The notes under the pieces were generated by a model, which searched no databases, was not told the origin of the DNA, and was given only the letters and a program-made list of their open reading frames with translations. From a virus, in the IMG/VR virus record IMGVR_UViG_3300049596_000225, positions 1-21,663 of that record: a stretch of 21,663 nucleotides of DNA; one strand, written 5' to 3'. Shown here in pieces: positions 10,395-12,912 of this stretch. How positions within the stretch are numbered: the stretch's first letter is position 1; the number at the start of each line of letters is the position of its first letter. The position numbers were made by a program, and so were the translations under genes.

Positions 10395-10406
10395 AAAAGA
10401 CAAATG

Positions 10407-11732
10407 ATGAAACACGGTAGTTTATTTTCGGGAATTGGAGGATTTGATTTAGCATCTGAATGGATGGGATGGGAAAATGTTTTCCATTGCGAGTGGAACG
10501 AATTTGGTAAAAAAGTGTTGCACCATTATTGGCCGAACGCAGAATCATTTGATGACATTACAAAAACCGACTTTACAAAATATGCAAACAAAATTGACAT
10601 TCTCACAGGAGGATTCCCATGCCAACCCTATTCCCAAGCAGGACAACGCAAAGGAAAAGAAGATGAACGCCATTTGTGGCCCCAGATGCTTCGAGCAATA
10701 CGGGAGATTAAACCAAAGTACATCGTGGGGGAAAATGTTTTTGGGTTGCTTAATTGGAATGGAGGGATGGTATTCGACGAGGTGCATTCTGACTTGGAAC
10801 TTGAGGGGTACGAAGTCCAGGCCGTGGTTATACCTGCGGCGGCGGTCAATGCCCCACACGGAAGGGATAGAGTATGGTTCGTCGCTTCCCACACCGATAG
10901 CAGGGGATTGGAAGGGTCAACGGAGGTCGGACGGAACGGCATCAATGTTGAGTGGGAAAGCAAGTTTGGGATTATTACCAACACCAAATTCAAGTCCGAG
11001 GGAAGTGACGGAGGAACAAACGATGAAACGGAAGGAAACATACGGAGGGGAAACGAGGGCAATGTATTTGGAACATTACGCGGTGATGGGAATGCTACCA
11101 ACCCCGAATACTTGCGATGCGAACAATGCCAACAACAAGGACAATCACGATGTGAAAAGGGGATATTTGAGGGGGTTTGCATCTATGGGATTACTACCGA
11201 CACCAACAGCATCAGCAATCGGGGAAAGTCAAAGCAATCACCAGCTGCACATAAGCAAGGAAGGGGTGGCGAAACCAATACGGGAATCGGGAATGAAGGG
11301 GAACAGCAATTTATACGCGACACTACAAGTGAGGGGCTTGATTCCAACACCGACAGCGTGCGATTACAACACACCGAGGAAACCAGAAACATTCAAGAAA
11401 GCACAAGAACGACACAAAGCGAAGGGAGTGAACTTACAGAATCCATTGAAACAAATGGCAGCGATGGGAATGTTACCGACACCACAAGCCCAGGAGGGGG
11501 AAAAGATAACGGGTTTGGAAAATCAAGATTCAATGACCAAACGAGTTCGACAAATAGTTGGGACAACTTCCCAACTCAATCCCCGATTTGTGGCGGAGAT
11601 GATGGGCTTCCCACCGAATTGGACGGAATTACCTTTTCAAAATGGAGAAACGAATCCATAAAAGCATACGGGAACGCGATAGTCCCACAAGTGGCATACC
11701 AAATTTTCAAAGCAATACAAGAAACGATATGA
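10407..11732 (+). CDS. C5-cytosine DNA methyltransferase
   Basis: This 441-residue enzyme transfers a methyl group from SAM to cytosine C5 in phage DNA, probably to evade host restriction. Motif I is SLFSGIGGFDLA (5-16), motif IV GGFPCQPYSQAG with Cys72, motif VI VGENVFG (107-113) and motif VIII NAPHGRDRVWFVA (148-160). Motif X-like GNAIVPQ is at 422-428. Residues about 161-370, where the target-recognition domain should be, are low-complexity in this frame and rich in Gly, Thr, Asn, Ser and Glu. The +1 frame is open across the same DNA and looks more like a recognition domain. A start at 10365 would precede the promoter -7 element. ATGA-coupled to the next gene. Confidence 0.85.
   Translation: MKHGSLFSGIGGFDLASEWMGWENVFHCEWNEFGKKVLHHYWPNAESFDDITKTDFTKYANKIDILTGGFPCQPYSQAGQRKGKEDERHLWPQMLRAIREIKPKYIVGENVFGLLNWNGGMVFDEVHSDLELEGYEVQAVVIPAAAVNAPHGRDRVWFVASHTDSRGLEGSTEVGRNGINVEWESKFGIITNTKFKSEGSDGGTNDETEGNIRRGNEGNVFGTLRGDGNATNPEYLRCEQCQQQGQSRCEKGIFEGVCIYGITTDTNSISNRGKSKQSPAAHKQGRGGETNTGIGNEGEQQFIRDTTSEGLDSNTDSVRLQHTEETRNIQESTRTTQSEGSELTESIETNGSDGNVTDTTSPGGGKDNGFGKSRFNDQTSSTNSWDNFPTQSPICGGDDGLPTELDGITFSKWRNESIKAYGNAIVPQVAYQIFKAIQETI
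10477..11661 (+). CDS. Overlapping +1 frame inside the methyltransferase
   Basis: This 394-codon frame has no stop and lies within the methyltransferase gene in the +1 frame. From about residue 135 it reads like a C5-methyltransferase recognition region: LPTPIAGDWKG, then further GLLPTP, GMLPTP, GLLPTP, GLIPTP and GMLPTP units at 10975, 11095, 11194, 11341 and 11473, then LNPRFVAEMMGFPPNWTEL. Its first 130 codons, which overlap motifs I-VIII of the other frame, match nothing I recognise. The third frame is closed by many stops (for example 10898, 11006, 11084). Expression might come from +1 frameshifting near 10880-10890, from internal initiation, or not at all. Coordinates mark the open frame, not a proven start. 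Confidence 0.4.
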   Translation: MFSIASGTNLVKKCCTIIGRTQNHLMTLQKPTLQNMQTKLTFSQEDSHANPIPKQDNAKEKKMNAICGPRCFEQYGRLNQSTSWGKMFLGCLIGMEGWYSTRCILTWNLRGTKSRPWLYLRRRSMPHTEGIEYGSSLPTPIAGDWKGQRRSDGTASMLSGKASLGLLPTPNSSPREVTEEQTMKRKETYGGETRAMYLEHYAVMGMLPTPNTCDANNANNKDNHDVKRGYLRGFASMGLLPTPTASAIGESQSNHQLHISKEGVAKPIRESGMKGNSNLYATLQVRGLIPTPTACDYNTPRKPETFKKAQERHKAKGVNLQNPLKQMAAMGMLPTPQAQEGEKITGLENQDSMTKRVRQIVGTTSQLNPRFVAEMMGFPPNWTELPFQNGETNP

Positions 11733-12169
11733 CAAGCCATCACCAGCAATTACACAACCAAAGACAAGAAATTAAACGACTGCGCTTATTGTTAGTTCAT
11801 ATACAAAGCGAAGCCCTAAGCAAAATCCAATCGTTAAAGCGTGAAATAATAAACCCACGGGTTGATTTTAACGATGCACCCAACCATTGGAAGGAAGTAT
11901 TACGGGCGGTTTGCACAGTATCAGAATTAACCCCCGATGAAATACTTTGCCCATCGCGGAAACGGGCATCGTTATACGCCCGTCACATGTTTAACTTTAT
12001 TTGCAGAAAAAGGTTAGGGATGCCGTGGGCAGAAATTGGTCGGATTATCCATCGCGACCATTCAACGGCAATCAATTCGGTAAACGAGTTTAGCAACATT
12101 TTGCACACCGATAAGGAGGTGCAAAGGCAATACGCCAAAGTGTGTGTATTATTGAACGAGGTATTATGA
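11729..12169 (+). CDS. DnaA domain IV-like DNA-binding protein
   Basis: This 146-residue protein lacks the AAA+ ATPase but ends in a DnaA domain IV-like unit: LTPDEILCPSRKRASLYARHMFNFICRKR, then MPWAEIGRIIHRDHSTAINSV. RDHSTA at 109-114 corresponds to the DnaA signature that reads DnaA boxes. A coiled-coil-like N-terminal helix spans about 8-42. It might bind DnaA boxes in the host or phage origin and either recruit or block host DnaA. The start at 11729 makes an ATGA overlap with the methyltransferase; the longer frame from 11642 would extend into that gene. The family call rests on the motif. Confidence 0.8.
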   Translation: MTSHHQQLHNQRQEIKRLRLLLVHIQSEALSKIQSLKREIINPRVDFNDAPNHWKEVLRAVCTVSELTPDEILCPSRKRASLYARHMFNFICRKRLGMPWAEIGRIIHRDHSTAINSVNEFSNILHTDKEVQRQYAKVCVLLNEVL

Positions 12170-12912
12170 ACATTATAAATTTTAGCGGTGGCCGAACATC
12201 CGCGTATATGACCAAACGCTTAATTGATGAAGGTGGCCAATACATTGTTACTTTTCAGAATACGGGAAAGGAGATGCCACAAACACTTGAATTTATTAAT
12301 GAGTGTGATAAGCGTTGGAATCTAAACATAGTGTGGTTGGAGTATCGTAAACCCGCAACCTTTGAAGTGGTAACCTACGAAACCGCATCACGCCAAGGCG
12401 AACCATTTAATCAATTATTGGAACAACGACCATCTGGAATACCTAATCAACAATTCAGATTCTGCACGATGGAATTAAAAATTGAGACATTGCGAAGATA
12501 TTTGAAATCACTTGGGATAAAGCAATACACATCTTTTAACGGGATAAGGTATGACGAACCAAGAAGGTGGGCAAAGATAAACGCAACTGATTTAGATGTT
12601 GAATTGCCATTGGTTAAGTGGAAAACAACAAAGCCAGATGTATTGAGTTGGTGGAAACAACAAGCATTTGATTTGATGGTGAATGAACCATACGGAAATT
12701 GCGATGGGTGTTTTTTGAAAGGCAAAGGCAAGTTGTCAATTATCGCCAAAGAAAAACCCGAATTATTTGATTGGTGGATCAAACACGAAACCGAATCGGG
12801 AAACACATTTAAGAAGGAAATCAGTTACCAACAAATCAAAGACAAGGCACAATCGCAACTTGGGTTGTGGGATGATGACCCATCGTTTGAGTGTTTCTGC
12901 AATGTAGATTAG
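12166..12912 (+). CDS. PAPS reductase-like PP-loop protein
   Basis: This 248-residue protein belongs to the adenine-nucleotide alpha-hydrolase superfamily related to PAPS reductase. The PP-loop FSGGRTS (6-12) binds ATP or an adenylated substrate. Conserved elements follow: TFQNTGKEMPQTLEF, RFCTMELKIETLRRYL, FNGIRYDEPRRW and the CDGCFLKGKGKL block. In phages these proteins are common but their substrate is unproven. DNA phosphorothioation (DndC-like), nucleobase modification and sulfur metabolism are possible. Location beside a DNA methyltransferase favours DNA modification, but that is an inference. The start is chosen at 12166 for the ATGA overlap. Confidence 0.75.
   Translation: MNIINFSGGRTSAYMTKRLIDEGGQYIVTFQNTGKEMPQTLEFINECDKRWNLNIVWLEYRKPATFEVVTYETASRQGEPFNQLLEQRPSGIPNQQFRFCTMELKIETLRRYLKSLGIKQYTSFNGIRYDEPRRWAKINATDLDVELPLVKWKTTKPDVLSWWKQQAFDLMVNEPYGNCDGCFLKGKGKLSIIAKEKPELFDWWIKHETESGNTFKKEISYQQIKDKAQSQLGLWDDDPSFECFCNVD

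Follow-up and report, generated by a model that had tools for sequence, protein, structure and literature searches.

Two overlapping genes at one locus

The DNA analysed is a virus record of 21.7 kb (21,663 nt), hereafter the window, and coordinates given without a locus handle refer to its + strand. Two long reading frames occupy the same DNA there (Table 1). The zero frame, which we call alpha, runs uninterrupted to its stop codon and encodes 441 residues, with an alternative ATG at 10404. The +1 frame, whose product we call beta, is free of stops from 10453 to 11658; its first ATG is at 10477 and its stop codon at 11659–11661. As the initial annotation had observed, the zero and +1 frames are long and open while the third is full of stops, 30 of them across the methyltransferase gene. 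Chance is ruled out as the source of the open +1 frame by codon shuffles and synonymous recodings: none of 5000 codon-order shuffles and none of 5000 synonymous recodings equalled its run of 402 codons, the longest run being 299 in both sets and the mean 111 in the recodings. Among the 22 other genes of the window the longest +1 run is 107 codons. Rfam and tRNA scans of the window gave no matches.

Table 1. Features of the overlapping methyltransferase locus in the window
Feature	Position	Strand	Basis
Alpha (putative subunit), C5-cytosine methyltransferase catalytic chain	10407..11732	+	PF00145, phrog_363, TIGR00675
Alpha motifs I-VIII	10407..10886	+	Invariant columns of the alpha alignment
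Alpha low-complexity region (probable linker)	10887..11555	+	Open, sequence not conserved
Alpha C-terminal part, WDNFPTQSPICGGDDGLPTELDG...KAYGNAIVPQ (motif X)	11556..11729	+	Invariant or nearly invariant alignment columns
Beta (putative subunit), 359 aa from the probable start, wholly within alpha	10582..11661	+ (+1 frame)	phrog_1008; conserved ATG; onset of beta constraint
Beta N-terminal domain, MQTKLTFS...WYSTRCILTWNLRGTKSRPWLYLRR	10582..10884	+	Invariant residues; lowered alpha third-position rate
Beta array, six LPTP/IPTP modules	10885..11574	+	Module types; beta codon-position rates
Individual modules	10885-10974, 10975-11094, 11095-11193, 11194-11340, 11341-11472, 11473-11574	+	LPTP/IPTP heads
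Imperfect 32-nt direct repeats, ATGGGATTACTACCGACACC-like, at module borders	10960..11489	+	Five copies, spacing 120, 99, 147, 132
Beta motif IX, LNPRFVAEMMGFPPNWTEL	11575..11631	+	Invariant residues; constraint in both frames

Alpha is readily recognised as a C5-cytosine methyltransferase chain. Pfam family PF00145 matches residues 1–226 (6e-47), phrog_363 covers residues 1–440 (3e-70) and TIGR00675 matches at 1e-41, and when the family profile was compared with the PDB the top match was M.HhaI (7e-30). The motifs seen include SLFSGIGG (motif I), GGFPCQP with the catalytic Cys72 (motif IV), ENV at residues 109–111 (motif VI) and HGRDR. Motifs I, IV (PCQ), VI (ENV), VIII and X all lie in alpha and are strongly conserved among 46 relatives. 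Absent from alpha between VIII and X, the place they have in other C5 enzymes, are motif IX and the target-recognition region, both of which are found in the +1 frame; alpha has in their place only a run rich in D, N, T, S and G. With beta held fixed, 12.7 stop codons would be expected in this part of alpha in the window and none is seen, and the hydrophobic fraction is 0.179 against an expected 0.251. The best reading of the run is a hydrophilic linker that is kept open.

The beta open reading frame, taken from 10477, matches phrog_1008, annotated as 'DNA methyltransferase' (5e-36). The earlier view that both frames are real and methyltransferase-related is borne out. The gene limits first proposed for the +1 frame, 10477 to 11661, hold at the stop; the start is probably the ATG at 10582. 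We place it there because an equivalent ATG is present in 65 of 73 relatives, a stop often lies directly upstream of it in their beta frame, and constraint on beta sets in at this point; no strong ribosome-binding site was apparent by eye upstream of it. Across 46 beta sequences the N-terminal domain, which we propose docks on alpha, has the invariant residues C36, W63, S65, C68, L70 and W72, and motif IX has L332, N333, P334, F336, V337, M340, M341, G342, F343, P344 and W347.

Searches with beta alone matched no family in Pfam, NCBIfam or PADLOC. A beta profile found nothing among solved structures, and the N-terminal domain of beta is without a known relative in those searched; a motif IX query gave no significant direct match to solved methyltransferases, and short motif IX/X queries produced chance matches or none. 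An AlphaFold model of a minimal beta (from locus L114) was poor (pLDDT 57, pTM 0.26), and this low-confidence model had no fold match in the PDB. We therefore infer the recognition fold of beta from the fused relatives considered below.

The overlap in related phages and bacteria

Searching IMG/VR with the +1 protein returned 493 related stretches, of which the best 80 were used; both frames could be delimited in 73 sequences (75 pairs, window included). Retrieval relied on beta peptides, which leaves alpha homologues that lack beta under-represented, and the counts give no frequency of alpha without beta; many alpha-type genes exist elsewhere. The offset of beta is +1 in 75 of 75 pairs, and a wider tally, with architectures assigned by sequence patterns, has 107 entries at +1 with motif X in alpha, none at +2 and seven with everything in one frame. 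Among bacterial genomes the same arrangement was seen at 72 of 80 scanned loci, in Bacteroidota, Bacillota, Pseudomonadota, Patescibacteria and other phyla; the remainder were mostly incomplete contigs or loci missed by the patterns. In most of the 73 relatives the beta stop coincides with motif X of alpha. Neither stops in homologues nor chance speaks against a function for the +1 frame: the shuffles never reach its length, and the beta interval has 0 stops in the 73 gene pairs compared with approximately 619 expected under synonymous recoding.

Existing records treat the overlap unevenly. It is annotated in Paenibacillus phage Diva, where gp50 is noted as 'g49 internal gene' (that is, internal to gp49). 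The beta gene is missing from the annotation of the Lactobacillus phage Lc-Nu record (L086, 1962-2510), and the Porphyromonas phage018a record (L087, 1465-2451) has beta alone, as a hypothetical protein, with alpha absent. At two loci (L196, 1920-2658, and L204, 1920-2658) beta starts near the start of alpha and overlaps all of it, including motif I.

As regards gene neighbourhood, the gene that follows in the window (11730-12169) encodes a helix-turn-helix protein resembling the C-terminal part of DnaA (PF08299, 4e-14), and proteins of this type were matched at 47 of the loci retrieved. Not far downstream of the methyltransferase, the window has a gene resembling PAPS reductase (12166-12912), and such a gene has the same placement in Bacteroides, Mycobacterium and metagenomic phages (L082, L083, L085, L063 and L204). 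A conserved link with PAPS reductase was rejected, as the gene is found at a minority of loci only (7/80 in the window clade).

Selection on each frame

Codon-aligned comparison of homologues, suggested at the outset as a check, revealed purifying selection in each frame. Expressed as difference counts over non-independent pairs, uncorrected for multiple hits, the rates at the three codon positions of alpha are 0.136/0.096/0.413 before beta begins and 0.054/0.047/0.441 after it stops, but 0.251/0.165/0.228 where alpha overlaps motif IX, both frames being constrained there. The third positions of alpha are the second positions of beta, and from this pattern it follows that alpha third positions are frozen exactly inside beta. 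In a sliding profile the constraint on beta begins around alpha nucleotide 165-210, near 10582, and peaks at WYSTRCILTWNLRG; the alpha third-position rate is 0.21-0.25 in the WYSTRC..TWNLRG part of the beta N-terminal domain.

Within the modules the codon-position rates of beta are 0.091/0.059/0.297. The beta nonsynonymous rate there is 0.059 against 0.469 for beta-synonymous changes, and changes silent in beta that alter alpha are eight times commoner than those that alter beta. Of 528 pairs of homologous modules, 527 are more alike in their beta than in their alpha amino-acid sequence, the mean identities being 90% and 66%. Nevertheless, alpha has 0 stops through the array at the 73 loci, compared with 486 expected with beta fixed. 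Alpha is thus open through the array without conservation of its sequence; its translation must therefore continue across the array for motif X to be made, while the array itself codes for beta. The initial annotation had suggested that one gene may encode two alternative recognition domains; this is not upheld, since amino-acid selection in the array acts in the +1 frame only, the zero frame there being an open linker. Selection thus acts separately on the two genes: on beta from approximately 10582 to its stop, on beta alone in the array, and on both in the regions of motifs VI-VIII and of motif IX.

A shuffled array of modules

The six LPTP/IPTP units first noticed by eye, 90-147 nt apart and followed by LNPRFVAEMMGFPPNWTEL at 11575, are all confirmed. 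Cutting beta at LPTP in the 73 genes yields 222 modules of 60 sequence types, with between one and six per gene; the order of types in the window is H-A-a33-D-F-B. For module type A we count 21 different neighbour contexts, and 14 for type C. A module shared by two genes may be as much as 24 points more similar in DNA than their backbones, but modules are not always the closer: across 1175 pairs the module lies more than 10 points above the backbone in 130 and more than 10 points below in 115. The case for cassette exchange consequently rests mainly on the varying order and neighbours, which indicate that the LPTP modules are cassettes recombined in many orders and shuffled between phages. The 32-nt repeats at the module borders are possible recombination sites. 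Since modules are all made up of whole codons and neither frame is interrupted within them, a swap leaves alpha and beta intact. By analogy with the multispecific enzymes of Bacillus phages, the modules probably act as individual recognition domains, each with a target of its own.

Two variations on the array may be mentioned. One is module type M (L038, L067, L014 and L015, for example), which is 145 aa long and includes an inserted helix-turn-helix-like segment. The other is a phage with a second alpha/beta pair in tandem with the first, their module sets being different (L063 and L068, 2831-5758).

Fused and repartitioned relatives

Actinophages such as ShiLan have enzymes in a single frame with the order I-VIII, LPTP modules, IX and X. 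In one of these (L151) positions 5-314 of the PF00145 profile align to residues 2-353, nearly the full length; the AlphaFold model of another (L152) has a pTM of 0.79 and matches M.HhaI over approximately 385 columns, its first LPTP module being, however, also of low confidence. In the fused relatives the tandem LPTP modules sit in the recognition position, between VIII and IX, in agreement with the earlier assignment of the +1 frame as a target-recognition region with an LNP..MGFP..W element, which is motif IX.

The partition of motifs also differs among loci with two frames. At L101, L136, L165, L170, L173 and L182 alpha consists of I-VIII only, and the +1 open reading frame has modules, IX and X. 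Each motif is nevertheless present once per locus, as would be expected if alpha and beta make up one enzyme.

In several fused actinophage loci (L085, 2181-2640; L149, 2196-2562; L151, L152, L153, L155 and L162) the +1 frame retains the beta N-terminal domain and one or two LPTP modules. It is constrained at these same loci, the alpha third-position rate being about that of the first, and these loci may still produce a short beta-like protein. At L030 (2919-3732) motif I, LPTP units and motif IX lie in one frame without a match to motif IV, a configuration that could be a natural fusion or a contig indel.

A probable single enzyme from two frames

The explanation we favour, set beside the direct observations of both frames, selection on each, motif partition, cassette shuffling and fused relatives, is that alpha and beta are very probably the two parts of one split C5-cytosine methyltransferase encoded by overlapping genes, with beta contributing a modular recognition array and motif IX. 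The complementary motifs support a single enzyme, alpha having I-VIII and X without IX, and beta having IX. Alpha would bind AdoMet and provide the catalytic cysteine with motifs I-VIII and X; beta, translated from its own start near 10582, would assemble with alpha and supply DNA recognition together with motif IX. The array, if each module has one target, would probably direct methylation to several sequences and so probably protect phage DNA against several restriction enzymes of the host, while phages would gain, lose and swap modules, probably through recombination at the LPTP-border repeats.

A different way of joining the same pieces is a programmed +1 frameshift near motif VIII, as the initial annotation proposed, which would connect I-VIII of alpha to the LPTP modules and IX in a second, longer enzyme. 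The actinophages lend this some plausibility, the very same pieces being naturally fused in one frame there. We nevertheless consider frameshifting improbable, because beta is conserved from approximately 10582, well upstream of VIII, in a part that a shift after VIII would leave untranslated, and because the shifted product would lose motif X, which is in the alpha frame, unless a second shift took place. Also unlikely is that the +1 frame encodes a separate protein of other function, anti-restriction or regulatory for example, which merely overlaps the methyltransferase. The failure of beta alone to match any Pfam, NCBIfam or PADLOC family, and of its N-terminal domain to find a relative among the structures searched, would suit such a protein. 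Against it, neither motif IX nor a recognition region is present in alpha, the LPTP/IX part stands between VIII and X in the fused enzymes of actinophages, and in several phages motif X has itself moved to beta.

We give practically no credence to the view that either frame survives as a relic of the other, without function, or that the overlap results from an assembly or sequencing indel. Single indels do shift frames in some relatives (the fused ShiLan type, L104, L101), and an indel joining VIII to the LPTP modules in one frame, once mentioned as a possible sign of such an event, does occur in actinophages; it is found there as a natural fused lineage, however, which reveals the role of the +1 open reading frame, and not as an assembly error. 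Purifying selection on each frame refutes a relic, including the overprinted one first envisaged, and an indel in the record is rejected since both frames are kept open and constrained in 73 gene pairs from independent phages, plasmids and genomes.

Comparison with known systems

In M.EcoHK31I the gene for the small subunit lies within that for the large subunit and is read in a different frame. This enzyme, which recognises YGGCCR, has two chains, the larger with motifs I-VIII and X and the second with IX, and its recognition domain is predicted to be on the larger subunit (PMC3404938). The window shows the same division of motifs between a large and a small chain. In contrast, the modules of the window lie in beta, as a multi-cassette array borne by a phage; we do not place the recognition domain on the large chain here because the fused relatives have the LPTP modules, in beta in the window, in the recognition position.

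M.AquI (CYCGRG) also has two subunits, with a natural split after VIII in the variable region (PMC3404938). Its beta subunit carries both IX and X, whereas X is in alpha in the window; the partition of the M.AquI type is found at L101, L136, L165 and L170, but with a +1 overlap of approximately 150-370 nt or more.

The multispecific enzymes of Bacillus phages are, as far as is known, single polypeptides encoded in one frame. Those of SPR, SPbeta, phi3T, rho11 and H2 are C5-methyltransferases with tandem recognition domains and several targets (PMC8936443). They resemble the window in having a tandem array in a phage enzyme, the arrays being compared here by architecture; their array is part of a single chain, while that of the window is in an overlapping second gene, so that two frames are used. 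Also close to the window is the gp49/gp50 pair of Paenibacillus phage Diva (phrog_363/phrog_1008), with the same +1 internal gene and the same beta family, although it has three modules rather than six and was annotated without a proposed joint function. In the literature covered, most subscription journals being outside its scope, we found no description of an overlapping split with a shuffled cassette array. Each part has a known precedent, M.EcoHK31I being the nearest for the split and the multispecific Bacillus phage enzymes for the array, and the overlapping split with shuffled cassettes across many phyla would appear to be the new combination.

Long same-strand overlapping genes for apparent halves of one enzyme are, to our knowledge, rare. 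The present arrangement is found repeatedly in phages and prophages from many bacterial phyla, where it is mostly annotated as one gene or has one half missed. On balance, though with less assurance than for the split enzyme itself, we think that dual-coded phage methyltransferases of this kind form a widespread class, whose second frame would be a combinatorial store of recognition cassettes; a module would be at once a permissible linker in the zero frame and a recognition domain in the +1 frame, and its swapping would retarget or broaden methylation. The locus also lends itself well to measuring selection on two frames at once. The split would explain the many phage 'DNA methyltransferases' that are without motif IX and a recognition domain, and the array would amount to a naturally occurring set of cassettes for methylating several targets, probably directed against host restriction.
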